This document shows, in pieces, positions 5,488-17,276 of a stretch of 25,797 nucleotides of DNA. How positions within the stretch are numbered: position 1 is the stretch's first letter; every line of letters starts with the position of its first letter. Below the pieces are notes generated by a model. The model had not been told where the DNA came from. It searched no databases and worked only from the letters and a program-made list of their open reading frames with translations. A program made the position numbers and the translations under genes. Location: the IMG/VR virus record IMGVR_UViG_3300024273_000600, positions 1 to 25,797 of that record, one strand, 5' to 3'. The DNA is from a virus.

Positions 5488-5516
5488 ACTATAGTTATCT
5501 TAGTAGTAATAGTCAA
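5488..5516 (-). promoter_or_regulatory. Promoter region of the SSB/replication operon
   Basis: Reading the minus strand, TTGACT (5516-5511), a 17-nt spacer and TATAGT (5493-5488) form a good sigma70-type promoter (5/6 and 5/6). The 15 nt at 5488-5502 also match 15405-15419 at 12 of 15 positions (AGATnnCTATAGT core), so the same DNA may instead be a promoter for the phage RNA polymerase with +1 G at 5489. Either reading gives a leader of about 45 nt to the SSB start. Confidence 0.6.
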
Positions 5517-5520
5517 AATA

Positions 5521-5539
5521 TCTTTAAGATTCTTAAAGA
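5521..5539. repeat. Perfect inverted repeat 3' of the RNA polymerase gene
   Basis: TCTTTAAG, loop ATT, CTTAAAGA: 8-bp arms immediately upstream of the -35-like box of the SSB promoter. On the minus strand it is followed by TATTTT, so it could be a weak terminator for the RNA polymerase transcript or a binding site. One arm plus TA equals the decamer unit of the array at 15474-15523. Confidence 0.5.
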
Positions 5540-5570
5540 GAGTTCAACTAGAATGTCGTTTCTTTTAAAG

Positions 5571-8099
5571 TTAGCTAAAAATATACTCACTTTCAGTAAC
5601 TTCATTTAGGTTTAGCGTATTAATCATTATACTGTCAACAGGTTTTTCGAATTTAGGATGGACTTGATTAATAAACTTCTTTAGAGGCTCACATTCAAAT
5701 AATTCAATATATGCCTCACGAACTCGTTTGTTTAAATTCTCAACAAAAGTAATAGGAACACCATAGCTATCATGTATTAGGTGAAAGTCAATACAACCAT
5801 CTGCTTTTAATTTAGCTACAGTATGGGAAAGCAAAGTTGCGTCAAGACTATGGATGAAATTTGGTGCTATACCATTAATCATTTTAATCTGATGTAGCTC
5901 AGTTACTGCTTTCCTAATAGACAGTTTACCGATTGGTGTGGTTATCCTTTCAAGCTTTGTATTGTGTATTTTCTGTAGGACAGGAAAGTTTGTAATAGGT
6001 GTGGTAAAGAATACCCACTTACCGTCCCTCACAACGTCCTGTGTGACCTCTTTGAGATATTCCTGACCTACCCTAGCTCCTTTCACTACATCCGCTATAG
6101 CGCGGTCGTTGAGCTCTGTAAGAAGCTTTGCTACTAACCACGTTTCACCTACCCAAAATCTCTTATTATCATTTTCCATATCAGATAGTTCAATTTTAAG
6201 TTGTTCGTACATCCCAAAGCGGGTGACTGAGTATGGTTGGGTCATTGTATTACGTTTGGTTAGTTGTCGAGTGATCTTACCCTTGATACTATCAGCAATA
6301 GCTTGCGTTGATACCTCATGTTTTATTTTATCAGAGGTTTTATAAGATAGCGTCTTTGGGTAATCACCAGCATAGAGGTAGCCATTTACTTTCTTAGCTA
6401 CTTGGTCATAGATATCATTCCTATCCTTCCCAATTACATTAACAGCCTTTGCACCATCAGCATCCCTAAGTAATCCTGAGTATATTTGGATACCACTACA
6501 GGTAGCGTCAAGAGCTATTGGAATATGTGAGCGAAAACTAACACTGTCCGAAAGATAATCGCTATACTCAAAGCACCAAGCGAGGTAAAGATAAGGATCG
6601 TCAGCGCCTTTCCAATACCGCTGTCCTTTGATCGGGTCGTTAGCGATTTCTCTGATTTCATTAGTTTTCTCCTTTATCTTTTGAACTCTTATATCATATG
6701 GGTCTTTGTCGAAACCAAAGCAATTAGCCCCATGTATTAGAAATAAGCGTAGTTGTTCTGGTGTTTCAATCTTGTAGCCCTTTTTAAATTCCAACAGCGC
6801 CTTAACTTCTGACCCCCCTTGTGGCTGTAGGTGCTGTTGGATTGGATAAACCCTGCCTCTAAAGTCATATTGATAGCTGAAAAAGAATTCCTCCTCTTCT
6901 AAGTATTCACGGGCATTGAATAGAACCAAATCTAGCATAATAGCTTTACCCATATTAGATAGGATTAAATCCTTTTGGGTTTCAATATCCTTGAAGTACT
7001 TTCGCGTCATCTTCTTGTCTTTAGGCAGTCCTTTGTAAGAGCCTTCGGTATTTATCTCCCCATAGTTGTGGATGTTAATAAAGTCTTCTGGGTCTTTCTT
7101 CTCGTTATAGGGCAACTTTCCAAGTAAGTAAGGATTGTTAGGCATTGCTTCGGGATCAAGTATGTTATCACGAAACACTTTATTCATCACCCCATAGACC
7201 CTACTATTAATACGCCAAGGCGTTGATTGCATAGTATTTAGCAAGTCGTAGACCGCAGATGTATCAGAGTTCTTAAAGAAGCCTTGTAGCAGAGCCTTAG
7301 AGCCTGTACGGCACTTAATGATTGGTAGTTGGTAGATAGCTTTGTTGTGATAACCACCGCTTCCATCAAACGATACCCAATCAGTTGGCTTAACTATAAG
7401 TATTGGAAACTTACGATAGTCTGCTAGTAATTTCTCCCTAGATTGCAAGACCATTCTAAAGCATTCTTCGGTGTAGACTATATAGTGTGCTCTCCTCCCT
7501 TTGCTGTAAACTACTTTAGTTTCTATAATGTTACTACCACTTTTTACTACTAAGTCTAGCAATGTGCCAGCTAGGTAGGTTGTAACATCATCTAAATCAG
7601 AATCGACTAAGCTTGCTTGGCGTTTGACAATCTTAATTTTCTCACGCCTCCTAAAGGTTTCGCTCCTAGATTTAAACCGTTTGTCAACAAAAGCCCCAAA
7701 GGTGCTATCATCACGATCAAGCCTACGAACTAAAATGCTATCGTAGATTGATCTATTTATTTGCTTGACAAGGGATATAGTAGGAACGTGAACATCACGG
7801 CTAATACTCCTGACAATAGTTGCAATAATAATAAAAGCTAGGTCTTTAGGTGATTTGTAGAATTCTATAGCAACAATATCACGGGCAATTTTCATCTTAC
7901 CTCTGATATCTCTATCAAAATATTCCATAATCTTTTCGGCTAGTAAGTTAATGCTATGAATAAGGATTAAGCGTCCCTCTGCCAATTCATCTGCTTGACC
8001 AGCCTTAATTCTGCTTTTGATTTCCTTCATTAACCTTTCGTAGCTATAGTCATTTGCGTCCATCTCAAGCTTTAGTTGTCGGTCAAGTATGTTAAGCAT
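5571..8099 (-). CDS. T7-type single-subunit RNA polymerase
   Basis: 842 residues (T7 gp1 is 883); transcribes the middle and late phage genes. Catalytic Asp in LDATCSGIQ (D531; T7 D537), Lys in RQLTKRNTMT (K615; T7 K631), Tyr in QPYSVTRFG (Y623; T7 Y639), second catalytic Asp in HDSYG (D777; T7 D812). GRVYPIQQHLQPQGG (about 415-429) and GIAPNFIHSLDA match conserved T7 blocks. The protein ends ESEYIFS, equivalent to the essential T7 C-terminal foot (FAFA). A ribosome site (AAAGG) precedes the ATG at 8099 in the 5-nt gap after the glycine-zipper gene. Promoter specificity is unknown; see the motif at 5488 and 15405. Confidence 0.98.
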   Translation of the reverse strand: MLNILDRQLKLEMDANDYSYERLMKEIKSRIKAGQADELAEGRLILIHSINLLAEKIMEYFDRDIRGKMKIARDIVAIEFYKSPKDLAFIIIATIVRSISRDVHVPTISLVKQINRSIYDSILVRRLDRDDSTFGAFVDKRFKSRSETFRRREKIKIVKRQASLVDSDLDDVTTYLAGTLLDLVVKSGSNIIETKVVYSKGRRAHYIVYTEECFRMVLQSREKLLADYRKFPILIVKPTDWVSFDGSGGYHNKAIYQLPIIKCRTGSKALLQGFFKNSDTSAVYDLLNTMQSTPWRINSRVYGVMNKVFRDNILDPEAMPNNPYLLGKLPYNEKKDPEDFINIHNYGEINTEGSYKGLPKDKKMTRKYFKDIETQKDLILSNMGKAIMLDLVLFNAREYLEEEEFFFSYQYDFRGRVYPIQQHLQPQGGSEVKALLEFKKGYKIETPEQLRLFLIHGANCFGFDKDPYDIRVQKIKEKTNEIREIANDPIKGQRYWKGADDPYLYLAWCFEYSDYLSDSVSFRSHIPIALDATCSGIQIYSGLLRDADGAKAVNVIGKDRNDIYDQVAKKVNGYLYAGDYPKTLSYKTSDKIKHEVSTQAIADSIKGKITRQLTKRNTMTQPYSVTRFGMYEQLKIELSDMENDNKRFWVGETWLVAKLLTELNDRAIADVVKGARVGQEYLKEVTQDVVRDGKWVFFTTPITNFPVLQKIHNTKLERITTPIGKLSIRKAVTELHQIKMINGIAPNFIHSLDATLLSHTVAKLKADGCIDFHLIHDSYGVPITFVENLNKRVREAYIELFECEPLKKFINQVHPKFEKPVDSIMINTLNLNEVTESEYIFS

Positions 8100-10632: not shown

Positions 10633-10784
10633 AAACTCTCCTCTGATTCTATGCCCTTCATAATAAGCTTTACGAAGCCATATTCAAAGACTTTATGGTA
10701 TGTTTCTGCATCTAAGTCAAGTGTTAATGTAGCTGAACCATCATCATTATCTATTATATCAGATATTTTAATATCGTTATTCAT
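10629..10784 (-). CDS. Hypothetical small acidic protein
   Basis: 51 residues: 'ISDIIDNDDGSATLTLDLD' then a helix 'HKVFEYGFVKLIMKGI'. This two-part pattern (DDGSA beta-hairpin plus helix) is common among small phage proteins of unknown function. Ribosome site AAGGAGATAAAGG; overlaps both neighbours by a few nt. Confidence 0.7.
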   Translation of the reverse strand: MNNDIKISDIIDNDDGSATLTLDLDAETYHKVFEYGFVKLIMKGIESEESL

Positions 10785-10929
10785 CCTTTATCTCCTTGCT
10801 ATATTTACGAAACCTCTTGTTATACGCACGTTTAATCTTTTTTAACTGACCGCTTTTCCAAATCAAAAACCTACGCGCCTTAGTGAGTCCATCATATTCA
10901 GCACCGCCTTTCATTGGTATTCGTTTCAT
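10777..10929 (-). CDS. Small basic protein
   Basis: 50 residues, very basic: MKRIPMKGGAEYDGLTKARR then 'WKSGQLKKIKRAYNKRFRK'. The GG.EYD..T..RR...W..G..K.IKR pattern resembles small basic proteins I recall from other podoviruses; they may bind nucleic acid. Ribosome site AAGGGGATTGT before the ATG at 10929. Function unknown. Confidence 0.7.
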   Translation of the reverse strand: MKRIPMKGGAEYDGLTKARRFLIWKSGQLKKIKRAYNKRFRKYSKEIKDE

Positions 10930-13517: not shown

Positions 13518-13541
13518 TAGAATTACTCCTACTGTGTTTGA

Positions 13542-13582
13542 TTAAAGTTGCCTTATGATGTAGCCCGAAGGCTACACTTTAA
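13542..13582 (-). ncRNA. Conserved hairpin element, copy 1
   Basis: Outer stem TTAAAGT/ACTTTAA (13542-13548 with 13576-13582), an 11-nt one-sided bulge, and an inner stem GTAGCC/GGCTAC (13560-13565 with 13570-13575). As minus-strand RNA the loop is C(UUCG)G, an exceptionally stable tetraloop. The stop codon of the upstream gene lies in the outer stem. Same architecture as the copy at 13826-13868. Confidence 0.6.
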
Positions 13583-13800
13583 GATAACTTAATAGAGCAT
13601 TGATTAAGGCCAGCTATTGCGTAGATCATGTCCTCCACTTTATCCCCCTTCTCACGATAATATTTTGCTGTGTCCATGTCCCCCAAATCGTAGGCTTTGT
13701 GAAATAATTGCTTAAGAGATAATAAGCTCATTAATTGGTCAGCTAAAAGTATTTTGCGTTGATTCGATGATAAAACTACTGCTAAATTTTCCTGTGTCAT
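13579..13800 (-). CDS. Hypothetical early protein (73 aa)
   Basis: Starts MTQENLAVVLSS; helical throughout (LADQLMSLLSLKQLFHKAYDLGDMD..KYYREKGDKVEDM). The start at 13800 has GAAAGGG 6 nt upstream, within a leader that shares 15 identical nt with the leader of the preceding gene. Function unknown. Confidence 0.75.
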   Translation of the reverse strand: MTQENLAVVLSSNQRKILLADQLMSLLSLKQLFHKAYDLGDMDTAKYYREKGDKVEDMIYAIAGLNQCSIKLS

Positions 13801-13825
13801 TTTGTACCCTTTCAAGGTTGCTTGA

Positions 13826-13868
13826 TTAAAGTTGTCTTATGATGCAGCACCTCAACGCTGCACTTTAA
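13826..13868 (-). ncRNA. Conserved hairpin element, copy 2
   Basis: Same plan as copy 1: outer TTAAAGT/ACTTTAA (13826-13832 with 13862-13868), bulge TGTCTTATGAT, inner GCAGC/GCTGC (13844-13848 with 13857-13861), loop of 8. One inner pair changes T-A to C-G relative to copy 1 (compensatory), while the bulge differs at one base. Not followed by a U-run, so not a terminator. Confidence 0.6.
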
Positions 13869-13874
13869 GAGAAC

Positions 13875-14105
13875 CTATACACCTAATCCTAGTTTTTGTT
13901 TAGTGTAGGCTACAAGGTCATCAACTTCCCAAAAGTCACTTTTCGCAATTTTACCTTTCGGGCTGATAACATATATTGGTGATTCATCGCCTAAAATTGG
14001 GTGCTCATAAAACTTATATCCACTACAGCGACCTAATAAAGTTGGATTATGCGACATAAACTTTTGAGCGTTTTCTGATAGTGTTACTTGGATAAATACT
14101 GTCAT
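13875..14105 (-). CDS. First early gene: hypothetical protein (76 aa)
   Basis: 76 residues starting MTVFIQVTLSENAQKFM. ATG 14105 is chosen because AAAGG lies just upstream and the longer in-frame start (14183) would run through the promoter. First gene after the terminator/promoter region, the position where T7-like phages often keep host-takeover proteins. No family recognised. Confidence 0.75.
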   Translation of the reverse strand: MTVFIQVTLSENAQKFMSHNPTLLGRCSGYKFYEHPILGDESPIYVISPKGKIAKSDFWEVDDLVAYTKQKLGLGV

Positions 14106-14154
14106 CTGGTAGCCTTTCAAGGTTGCTAGGTTGCTTGCTTCGTTTCGATGATTC

Positions 14155-14258: not shown

Positions 14259-14288
14259 AAAAAAAACCATCAAAAAGCTTGATGATGG
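14259..14288 (-). terminator. Rho-independent terminator
   Basis: Minus strand: CCATCA...TGATGG (6 bp; alternative CATCAA/TTGATG register with 5-nt loop), directly followed by T8 then CAT. Points against the minus-strand transcripts entering the early region. Confidence 0.65.
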
Positions 14289-14346
14289 TGATGTTGCTGA
14301 TTCGTTCTCTTGTTCCTGATTCGTTCTATATGACTAATAAGCTTAC

Positions 14347-14453
14347 ATTCAGCTTCTTGAATATGTATTGATACATTCAGCTTCTTGAATATGGCTCTCT
14401 CTGGTAGACATTCAGCTTCTTGAATATGTTGAGATACATTCAATCTCTTGAAT
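14347..14453. repeat. Four palindromic boxes (ATTCA-N6-TGAAT)
   Basis: 16-bp boxes at 14347-14362, 14375-14390, 14410-14425 (all ATTCAGCTTCTTGAAT) and 14438-14453 (ATTCAATCTCTTGAAT, arms of 6). Start-to-start spacing is 28, 35, 28. Each box is flanked by ACATTCA...GAATATG. The dyad form and even spacing suggest binding sites for a dimeric regulator or other DNA-binding protein. Confidence 0.75.
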
Positions 14454-14468
14454 ATGTTTAGAATGATG

Positions 14469-14495
14469 AAAAAAAATCCTCGCATTTCGCAAGGA
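14469..14495 (-). terminator. Strong rho-independent terminator
   Basis: Minus-strand RNA: UCCUUGC, loop GAAAU, GCGAGGA (7 bp including one U-G pair), then U8 and CAU. The U-G pair would be an A-C mismatch in plus-strand RNA, so the element is oriented for minus-strand transcription. Confidence 0.8.
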
Positions 14496-14514
14496 CAATT
14501 GAGCGTATAAAGGA

Positions 14515-14526
14515 ACGCGCGCGCGT
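14515..14526. other. 12-bp GC palindrome ACGCGCGCGCGT
   Basis: An alternating CG tract, perfectly palindromic, in otherwise AT-rich non-coding DNA just beyond the strong terminator. Purpose unknown; alternating CG can adopt unusual helical forms. Confidence 0.5.
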
Positions 14527-14581
14527 AGCATGAATGATTCTTTAAGTCAAGCACAAAAAGCATGAAGAAACATATAGAAAC

Positions 14582-14641
14582 ATTCAGATATTTGAATGTG
14601 TTATTCCCCTAGATCATATAGAAACATTCAGATGCTTGAAT
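14582..14641. repeat. Two further palindromic boxes in a 44-bp repeat
   Basis: Boxes ATTCAGATATTTGAAT (14582-14597) and ATTCAGATGCTTGAAT (14626-14641). Both are preceded by the same 13 nt (CATATAGAAACAT...; from 14571 and 14615), giving a 44-bp direct repeat. Same arms as the four boxes at 14347-14453. Confidence 0.7.
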
Positions 14642-14749
14642 ATGTCAAAAAGAATCGCTTTGGCGCGTCGAAAAGAAGCGGCACGGGGGACATCGCGCGT
14701 TTCATCTCTAATGATACCCACTGACATTTTTTTTATTTTTTTAGAAATC

Positions 14750-15217
14750 TCACCATTTCCCTTGGTTCTGTCCAAGGAGATAGAGTCCATAGCCAGCAAA
14801 GGCTACTGTTACAGCTACGATAAGGAACCCTACGCCCCAAGATATCATAGCATCTATCATTTCTTTTTTGCGGTACTCATGCTTCTCGCGTTGAGCTTTC
14901 ATAGTCCTAATAGTCTTCTTATAATCTTCAAGACCTTGCATACCATATGTATACATAATCATTACCTCTAGGTCTTTTTTTAGTGCGTCTACTTTCTGCT
15001 TTGCGATAAAAGCATTAGCAGCTTCCTTCTCATATGAGCTAGAGAAGCTTTTGTAGAACGGTGGGTCTTTAGCTTTTTCAGCTGAATAGTTGATATCACT
15101 TAGAGCCCCAGCGAAGGAGCTAAGAGCATTCGAAGCATCTCTGCCAGCACTCAAGAGTGACTTAATTTGACCAACAGCTGACGAAGCAATAGCTAGAGCG
15201 CTAATTGGATCAATCAT
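14750..15217 (-). CDS. Membrane-anchored protein following the terminase
   Basis: 155 residues from ATG 15217, which overlaps the stop of the 58-aa gene (ATGA); an in-frame ATG at 15250 would add 11 residues. It begins MIDPISALAIASSAVG, has a long charged helical middle (about 65-120, EKEAANAFIAKQKVDALKK) and one C-terminal transmembrane segment (about 125-148). Similar proteins ('DPISA...' start, 'YTYG.QG...Y' middle, C-terminal helix) occur in other podoviruses near terminase, but I know no proven function. Lysis or ejection roles are possible. It is the last gene before the non-coding junction. Confidence 0.75.
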   Translation of the reverse strand: MIDPISALAIASSAVGQIKSLLSAGRDASNALSSFAGALSDINYSAEKAKDPPFYKSFSSSYEKEAANAFIAKQKVDALKKDLEVMIMYTYGMQGLEDYKKTIRTMKAQREKHEYRKKEMIDAMISWGVGFLIVAVTVAFAGYGLYLLGQNQGKW

Positions 15218-15390
15218 TGAGTAATGTCTTTCTTTCGTTGAAGTGGACATCGAGCATCGGGGTGGATGTGGTAGGAGTAGTTTCTTGAGGAAGTCTCTTG
15301 AGCTTCGTGATACACACAGACCTTCCTAAAGGTATTCACCCCATCTAACCAAAAGTGGTTGTAGCCAACGAATACTAGCACAAGTAACAT
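15214..15390 (-). CDS. Small N-anchored protein, possible lysis accessory
   Basis: 58 residues: MLLVLVFVGYNHFWLDG start (short hydrophobic anchor), then 'FRKVCVYHEAQETSSRNYSYHIHPDARC' with two cysteines. AAGGAT lies 5 nt before the ATG at 15390, and its TGA overlaps the next start. A candidate phage promoter sits 15 nt upstream. Position after terminase and an N-terminal anchor would suit a spanin-like or lysis-accessory protein, but no sequence motif proves it. Confidence 0.55.
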   Translation of the reverse strand: MLLVLVFVGYNHFWLDGVNTFRKVCVYHEAQETSSRNYSYHIHPDARCPLQRKKDITQ

Positions 15391-15473: not shown

Positions 15474-15523
15474 CTTAAAGATACTTAAAGATACTTAAAG
15501 ATACTTTAAGATACTTAAAGATT
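15474..15523. repeat. Decamer tandem array (CTTAAAGATA)n
   Basis: Five 10-bp units starting at 15474, 15484, 15494, 15504 (variant CTTTAAGATA) and 15514 (last base T), then an AT-rich tail (CTTATATACTTATATAT). It lies between the terminase stop and the 58-aa gene. T7 carries arrays of short CCTAAAG-type repeats next to its terminal repeats, and this array may be the counterpart. Confidence 0.8.
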
Positions 15524-15578
15524 CTTATATACTTATATATCCTCACCCTTGGATTGTCTTTTCATTTGAAGTAGACTA

Positions 15579-17276
15579 CTACGAATATGCTTTTAATCTT
15601 TTTAAAGCTGGTTTAGATGATGATTTCTTCTGGTTAAGACTCTTAAAGATATTAGCTCGACGTTTGAGCTCGTCTTCTACTTGCTTCCTCTTATACATAC
15701 CAAGAGCTATCTCACTATTCTGCTTCAATATACCATACTCGTTCCAGAACTGGACACCTAAAGTCAAGGCATCAAGCCTATCGTCATGCACCAAAGCTCC
15801 CCTATCCTTTGTAATATGGGTCATCTGGTAGATAAGCGAGTAGTAAATGTTCTTAGGCTCACTTAAACCAAACTCAATATCCTTCTTTATAGCCGAATAA
15901 TCGAATACAAGACGATGCTGGTTCATCAAAGGTTCCAAAGAATCTATAATACGCTTCTCCTTTTGGATGTTATTGCGTATTTCTTCTATACCAACTGGGT
16001 AAATGGCGTGTAACACAGGCATCATAAGGTTGGTAAACATACCATCACCAAAGTTACTTTCGACTACAATCTTATTAACCCTATGTTCTTTAGCTATTTC
16101 ACTAAGCTTTACGAGGTTACTTTCCTCATATCCACCCTTCATACCACCAAAAGCTGGCACAAAGACCTTACCAAGGAGATGATTTACTACAGCCCACCCC
16201 ATTTCATCCTGACCACGACCACTAGGGTCGATAGCAAGTACACTACCTTCATAGCCACCGAAGGCTTCTTGCCCAGAAGGCCGCTGGAAGGTGTCTCCAG
16301 AGAAGCCTAGGTTGGGTATATCCGTAACGCTATCGTGGCTCTGAGAGCTCCACAGGAGCTTTGTAGGGGCCTCCATAGCACCCATATCAGTTATGATTAA
16401 ATCCTTAGTCTTAAGTGGGTACTTTTCAGAGTCACTAAGAGTCGTATCGATCATAAACTGTAGCTTAAAACCACTCCTACCATAGCTCAATTCACGCTGG
16501 TACAAGTCTTCCTCGTTAAACCTACTATCAATAGGGGTATTAATCAACATTGGATTCTTAGCCATATCCTCTACTATGTAGTCTGCCAAGCAACCTTGGT
16601 AACTATCAGTATTCTCAGGATACCTAGCAGGGTATATACGGGTAACATAGCCCTTATCTCTCAACCTAGCATAGATAGACTCAGAGGTTTGGGGTGTTCC
16701 TAGTACAAGTATCTGGGCATTAGTAGTAGTCTGTAGAATAGCCTCGTATTCAGCTACTTGATTCAGTAGGTCTTGCCTACGTCTTTCAGTTGCAGAGTTC
16801 TGCTGGCCCTCAACGTCATCTGAGATGAGTAGCGAAGCACGATTACCCTGTAGCTGGGAGGTGATACCTAGTGCCTTGACACTAGGCTGTACGGATACAT
16901 TGCAACCATTAACATCGAAGGATACAACGGAGCTACGCTGGTCGGATCGGGGCTGTAGGTGCTCAAGAATAGGCATCGTATCGATTAGTTTCCTAATAAA
17001 TATTGAGATGTTATCTGAGTGATTACCTGACTGCGATACAATCAAAATCTTTTCGTTAGGGTCGCGCAGCAAACGCCATGCAACATAGGCTCCTGTAATC
17101 CAAGTCTTGCCAATACCACGCAAAGCTTCTAGCTGTGAGCGCTTGTGGCCTTCCTGCAAGTAATCAGCTATATAATACTGCATACGAGTAGGGGATGGTA
17201 GTCGTAAATGCTCCCAAGTAATCTTAAGGAATACCTTAAAATCTTTAATCGCACTTTCTATTTCATGCTTCTCCAT
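15579..17276 (-). CDS. Terminase large subunit (T7 gp19-like)
   Basis: 565 residues (T7 gp19 is 586): the packaging motor. ATPase: Walker A RGIGKT (53-58), 'KILIVSQSG' motif, Walker B LLISDDVEG (149-157), and 'ILVLGTPQT' coupling motif (189-197). RNase H-like nuclease: D350 in VLAIDPSGRG, E406 in VVESNFGDG, D499/D502 in HDDRLDALTLG. The C-terminus is basic (KKSSSKPALKRLKAYS). It drives DNA into proheads and cuts concatemers. AAAGGAGAA lies before the ATG at 17276; the 100-nt structured spacer separates it from the small subunit. Confidence 0.96.
   Translation of the reverse strand: MEKHEIESAIKDFKVFLKITWEHLRLPSPTRMQYYIADYLQEGHKRSQLEALRGIGKTWITGAYVAWRLLRDPNEKILIVSQSGNHSDNISIFIRKLIDTMPILEHLQPRSDQRSSVVSFDVNGCNVSVQPSVKALGITSQLQGNRASLLISDDVEGQQNSATERRRQDLLNQVAEYEAILQTTTNAQILVLGTPQTSESIYARLRDKGYVTRIYPARYPENTDSYQGCLADYIVEDMAKNPMLINTPIDSRFNEEDLYQRELSYGRSGFKLQFMIDTTLSDSEKYPLKTKDLIITDMGAMEAPTKLLWSSQSHDSVTDIPNLGFSGDTFQRPSGQEAFGGYEGSVLAIDPSGRGQDEMGWAVVNHLLGKVFVPAFGGMKGGYEESNLVKLSEIAKEHRVNKIVVESNFGDGMFTNLMMPVLHAIYPVGIEEIRNNIQKEKRIIDSLEPLMNQHRLVFDYSAIKKDIEFGLSEPKNIYYSLIYQMTHITKDRGALVHDDRLDALTLGVQFWNEYGILKQNSEIALGMYKRKQVEDELKRRANIFKSLNQKKSSSKPALKRLKAYS

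Follow-up and report, generated by a model that had tools for sequence, protein, structure and literature searches.

Six palindromic boxes at the predicted left genome end of a T7-like phage

Six copies of a 16-bp dyad, ATTCA-N6-TGAAT, are clustered at the late/early junction of a T7-like phage. They are probably the left-end iterated repeats of this phage in a palindromic form, located within and just past the direct terminal repeat. The stretch analysed, referred to below as the window, comprises 25,797 bp from IMG/VR; it is a genome fragment of this marine phage, with all genes on the minus strand. The terminase is predicted to cut at window position 14714, and the array begins 73 bp from there; a T7-type start element lies directly on its late side, and repetition is strong within approximately 400 bp of the predicted end. 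The features are listed in Table 1.

The gene order of the window runs from the internal virion proteins through the small and large terminase subunits, a short junction, small early ORFs and PhoH to a single-subunit RNA polymerase, SSB, a RusA-like resolvase, a helicase-primase and PolA; the names SSB, helicase-primase and PolA rest on the sequences and the gene order. RNA polymerase, T7-type terminase, helicase-primase and PolA, by which a T7-like phage was defined, were all recognised (PHROG 414, E 1e-168; 38, E 4e-100; 891; 342). The top tblastn matches were to Lauvirus and roseophage Autographiviridae, and by terminase, at 50-56% identity, the closest isolates were Lauvirus and roseophages such as CRP-125. 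Of 12 isolate homologues of the ORF at 14750-15250, 10 came from Roseobacter phages, so the host is likely to belong to the Rhodobacterales. For the first early gene we infer a start at ATG 14105 rather than at TTG 14183, because the family match starts at residue 35 and AAAGG precedes the ATG. Duplicated leader segments, 85-90% identical, were observed before consecutive small early genes (13535-13564 and 13819-13848; 13795-13827 and 14100-14132).

Table 1. Features of the junction region, with positions in the window and, where given, in the predicted genome
Feature	Position	Strand	Remarks
First early gene	13875..14105	-	PHROG 11770; start at ATG 14105
Terminator hairpin T2, then T8	14266..14289	-	-8 kcal/mol, z -3.1
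Box 6	14347..14362	.	genome 353-368
Box 5	14375..14390	.	genome 325-340; L005 lacks one 28-bp box unit from here
Box 4	14410..14425	.	genome 290-305
Box 3	14438..14453	.	genome 262-277
Intrinsic terminator T1	14476..14496	-	-11.1 kcal/mol, z -3.8; genome 219-239
Box 2	14582..14597	.	genome 118-133; probably within terminal repeat; perfect 7-bp arms ACATTCA/TGAATGT
Box 1	14626..14641	.	genome 74-89; probably within terminal repeat
C5 run	14685..14689	-	genome 26-30; clade-conserved and shared with the terminal repeats of T7, T3 and gh-1
T7-type terminal-repeat start element	14710..14744	-	AAAAAAT-N6-GGGTA/TCAT (/ = cut); matrix and alignment with T7, T3 and gh-1 ends
Small ORF	14750..15250	-	PHROG 32327; stops just short of the genome-end element
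10-bp CTTTAAGTAT repeats	15474..15527	-	late side of the junction
Phage RNA-polymerase promoter-like motif	15539..15574	-	immediately follows terminase; same placement as T7 phiOR
Terminase large subunit	15579..17276	-	PHROG 38, E 4e-100; no conserved late gene between it and the genome end

The six dyads that the sequence-only reading had described in 14347-14641 are real: a pattern search recovered all six as exact matches, and the rest of the 25,797 bp contained no further copy. In 20,000 shuffles of the local 611 bp the mean was 0.009 boxes and the maximum was 2. When gaps of 0-20 between the arms were tested, only the gap of 6 was present. The arms are identical among the boxes and the inner six bases vary; the extended box reads ACA[T/C]ATTCA-N6-TGAAT[A/G]TGT, and the half-sites in each dyad are 11 bp apart. 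The box positions bear out the reported spacing of 28/35/28 in the quartet, in which the first and third boxes, like the second and fourth, are separated by 63 bp (6.0 turns). The last two boxes are indeed 44 bp apart, but what had been called a 44-bp direct repeat is a repeat of approximately 31 bp, 90% identical, spaced by 44 bp. A GTTC-N7-GTTC sequence, the consensus of alphaproteobacterial LexA sites, adjoins the array at 14312-14326; about 0.8 such sequences are expected by chance in the window.

The placement of the array at the late/early junction also stood, with the terminase genes on one side and the small early ORFs and the RNA polymerase on the other. Its non-coding status is supported by the near-identical relative L005, in which loss of one 28-bp unit and a 6-bp insertion leave the ORF at 14270-14563 (minus strand) frameshifted and shortened; L005 also has a homogenised inner hexamer. 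The strong terminator proposed between the two groups of boxes was confirmed (T1). A second hairpin, T2, which the sequence-only reading did not contain, separates four boxes from the first early gene.

A contig of a T7-like phage that joins terminase to early genes does so at the concatemer junction. A 35-bp element on the late side, adjoining the boxes, is conserved in the clade. The matrix for this start element was trained on 14 marine sequences, among which there was no T7 relative of known ends. Its top match in T7 was 39778 (27.6 bits, next 4.7) and in T3 37978 (25.6 bits, next 0.8), both of which are the known terminal-repeat starts; the end of gh-1 was the second-best match in that phage, 1 bp off the annotated start. 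With the window excluded from training, the matrix gave a single strong match in it (32.5 bits, next 5.5). Terminal repeats start (/ = cut) as AAAAATCTGAGTGACTA/TCTCAC in T7, AAAAATCTGAATGGGTA/TCTCAT in T3 and, by prediction, AAAAATGTCAGTGGGTA/TCATTA in the window. The ends of SP6 and ICBM1 were not detected by the matrix. Because a matrix trained on marine sequences finds the T7 and T3 starts and makes one strong match in the window, the prediction of genome position 1 at window 14714 is well supported by sequence comparison.

At the other end of the terminal repeat, TATCTGT occurs at or beside the boundary in T7, T3, gh-1 and SP6 (4/4), and the right end of T7, T3 and SP6 carries TATCTGTT. 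TATCTGT matches the class II signal of T7 polymerase, ATCTGTT (PMC11617373). A right end at genome position 138 of the window phage was considered and rejected: the best match, CTATATGTT, was unconvincing and is missing from the relatives.

Counted from the predicted end, all six boxes fall within the first 370 bases. The CCTAAAG repeats of T7 (genome 17-332) occupy the same place as the boxes (74-368), with copies starting at 17-60 inside the terminal repeat and at 175-332 beyond it. Since the terminal repeats of T7, T3 and gh-1 measure 160, 231 and 216 bp, boxes 1 and 2 are probably inside the predicted terminal repeat and boxes 3-6 outside, and T1 sits near the boundary. Each end of the virion DNA would then probably carry boxes 1 and 2. 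A T7-like Pseudomonas phage is reported to have a terminal repeat of 985 bp, so the repeat of the window phage could contain all six. Like T7 and T3, the window has an array that lies both within the terminal repeat and past it, approximately 400 bp or less from the left genome end; it also shares with them the terminal-repeat start element and a phiOR-like promoter after the terminase. The repeat of T7 and T3 is a directional heptamer, whereas the window has 16-bp palindromes with interleaved terminators. The match to the T7 end repeats, SRL and SRR of Dunn and Studier, is not strict: T7 has CCTAAAG on both sides, whereas the late side of the window is without a box and carries the CTTTAAGTAT repeats. 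The papers searched gave no function for SRL/SRR; what these arrays do at the ends of the T7 genome is, to our knowledge, still unexplained, long known as they are.

In the clade of the window it is the position-specific repetitiveness that is conserved, while the repeat sequence itself has turned over. The left-end 400 bp of the window has a repetitiveness score of 90 (median elsewhere 2), and 0 of 246 other segments score as high; the corresponding segment of T7 scores 94, with 0 of 392 others higher. In 11 of the 16 lineages tested, the window included, the left-end 400 bp is the most repetitive segment. In L006, L007 and L011 the array is just past 400 bp, and the left end is mildly repetitive in L013, CRP-125 and CRP-114 and also weaker in Lau218. 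Conservation of the box itself in close relatives, which the sequence-only reading had made a condition of its account, did not hold: of the 38 terminase loci compared, L005 alone has the box, and its DNA is 98% identical to the window. Relatives with a 78-84% identical terminase have unrelated repeat sequences in place of the boxes, and the iterated sequences of other lineages at the same place include TGTC-N8-GACA, TCTTATATAAGA, CTCAAAG, CCACAGG and TACCCTTAGCAA.

In the Yersinia T7-like fPS phages, the DNA that separates the left terminal repeat from the first phage promoter contains copy-number-variable repeats, 28-bp units included, and there are other repeats at the right side (PMC5923468). 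Their variation in unit number next to the left terminal repeat is like that between the window and L005; the main text of that study tabulates the repeats but no dyads common to another phage family (PMC5923468). Since the Yersinia phages show them, the end position and the repetitive character are of a kind already known, and the palindromic form is a variant. The Cobavirus marine roseophages have short direct terminal repeats with a conserved G+C-rich start, and that of Lentibacter phage ICBM1 (Cobavirus) is 172 bp (PMC6775973). ICBM1 has no box, and the matrix finds no T7-type start element at that end.

The left ends of L006, L007, L011 and L014 each contain two near-perfect sigma54 promoters, TTGGCACG-N4-TTGCW, against a background of 0.04 per kb-strand. 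Those of L007 are at genome positions of approximately 502 and 557, and in L007 and L011 (probably also in L006) the promoters stand behind tandem TGTC-N8-GACA dyads with a 21-bp period. The sequences suggest that in marine phages of this type the early genes may be read by the sigma54 holoenzyme together with an enhancer protein of the host, which as far as we know is unusual in T7-like phages.

The same box was found in a second group of phages. A box scan revealed clusters of 2-9 copies in HMO-2011-like (roseophage-type) contigs (L043, L044, L051, L059, L076, L094, L101, L112, L117, L123, L145 and L148). The clusters lie in the long non-coding stretch where early and late genes meet, and in several of them the copies are spaced by exactly 28 bp; whole HMO-2011-like records gave 2-9 boxes and zero control matches. 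The extended box is as in the window, and a two-box segment is 84% identical to the window over 51 nt (E 1e-6). The contigs that were read also show CTTTAAG-type repeats and a C-rich stretch beside the boxes. The resemblance to the end element is visual, because the start-element matrix gave no match at the boxes of these contigs. The HMO-2011-like contigs differ from the window in genome plan and have divergent modules; thyX, the 14750-15250 ORF and small genes are common to both, and the window also has genes in common with roseophages. The box was absent from HMO-2011 (first 50 kb), from the roseophage isolate stretches checked and from ICBM1. As the two groups share the box and no shared regulator was recognised, a host factor or exchange of end regions comes into consideration, and the comparison suggests a common dimeric protein, perhaps host-encoded, behind the shared box. 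One candidate for a shared regulator, the ORF at 10777-10929, was rejected: it occurs in more than 200 viral stretches, and 0 of the 80 loci examined had clustered boxes.

A genome-wide scan for paired boxes gave scattered matches in many phyla, and those examined were unlike this box. Palindromes of other kinds were encountered on the way. At 13631-13787 of L168 the perfect palindrome-like TAACATATTCAAAAAACTGAATATGTTA is repeated head to tail in 36-bp units, four of them complete. Palindromes of the types AAGATTCACGTACGTGAATCTT and AAGATTCATGTACATGAATCTT are dispersed in a contig of 24.6 kb (L137/L143, contig 3300003886_000042; L175/L182 of a gammaproteobacterial MAG).

The leading idea of the sequence-only reading was an operator array. 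Its account of non-random dyads with terminators at the junction was sound, and the packaging, replication and host-protein options that it listed were fair; the operator itself fared less well. A phage or host regulator binding the boxes, as operators or enhancers, to control an early promoter would fit the dyad symmetry and the location upstream of early genes, and in L006, L007 and L011 the tandem TGTC-N8-GACA dyads, 60-130 bp upstream of two sigma54 promoters, resemble activator sites. However, the boxes adjoin no recognisable promoter: on the early strand no sigma70 match of at least 10/12 and no sigma54 promoter was found within 900 bp, and the single weak sigma70 match (9/12) is on the opposite strand. 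The sigma54 GG-N10-GC promoter is absent from the whole window, which speaks against a sigma54 enhancer (UAS) array. Moreover, T2 separates the boxes from the first gene, and two boxes are past T1 and probably part of the terminal repeat. No HTH family was recognised among the proteins scanned, which are those of the window and include many small ORFs without a family; and relatives replace the boxes with unrelated repeats. Because of T2, the missing promoter and the two boxes beyond T1 we regard regulation of an early promoter as unlikely here, although some arrays in the clade could act in early transcription, given the sigma54 promoters and upstream dyads of the relatives. Somewhat more doubtful still are neutral repeats, unstable duplications that gather at recombining genome ends without a binding protein. 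Sequence turnover between lineages and the differing unit number of near-identical phages speak for them; the identical arms around variable inner bases, the one fixed gap of 6 and the recurrence of box and spacing in another phage family speak against.

Dyads that recur in non-coding DNA close to a genome end could also be iterons bound by an origin protein. This is improbable: an initiator gene was not recognised, a T7-type helicase-primase and DNA polymerase are present, and promoter-like motifs with AT-rich CTTTAAG repeats follow the RNA polymerase gene and the terminase, places that in T3 and T7 hold an origin or origin promoters. Apart from the copy after terminase, the promoter-like motif has its best match in the window immediately downstream of the RNA polymerase gene (5573), and the motif is followed by CTTTAAG repeats at both sites (5516-5573 and 15474-15574). 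In placement the two sites resemble the T7 origin promoters and phiOR, and they are perhaps replication origins. Very little probability attaches to the boxes acting as hairpins of a short transcript between T1 and T2. Each box does fold as a 7-bp hairpin (-4.3 kcal/mol) and four lie between the two terminators, but such hairpins follow from the dyad itself, the four-box RNA is overall not unusually stable (z -1.5), and no promoter was found there. That the boxes are promoters of the phage RNA polymerase would suit repeats in a phage encoding its own polymerase, but this we rejected as next to impossible: the conserved promoter-like motif has a different sequence, sits after the terminase and the polymerase gene and is absent from the array.

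If the boxes are left-end repeats, as we favour, each dyad would be bound by a homodimeric protein, more probably encoded by the host than by the phage. We infer a role at the genome end, where the protein would load along the DNA and aid end-related steps rather than switch one promoter; such steps may be the joining and cutting of concatemers, or the protection and organisation of the first DNA entering the cell. T1 would stop or pause phage transcription arriving through the concatemer junction. A search of 199 Lentibacter family genomes with the box pattern (up to 2 mismatches) gave scattered matches and no box-rich chromosome, so a host regulon is not supported. It is conceivable, and put forward tentatively, that one host DNA-binding protein, probably of the Rhodobacterales, recognises ACATATTCA-N6-TGAATATGT and is recruited to the genome ends by T7-like and HMO-2011-like phages.

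The start-element matrix can place the genome ends of metagenomic T7-like phages without reads. A dyad shared, spacing included, by two unrelated groups of marine phages is a concrete DNA bait for the protein. If a host factor does bind it, the end repeats of T7-like phages would evolve to match that factor, and the repeat would accordingly differ between lineages and hosts.
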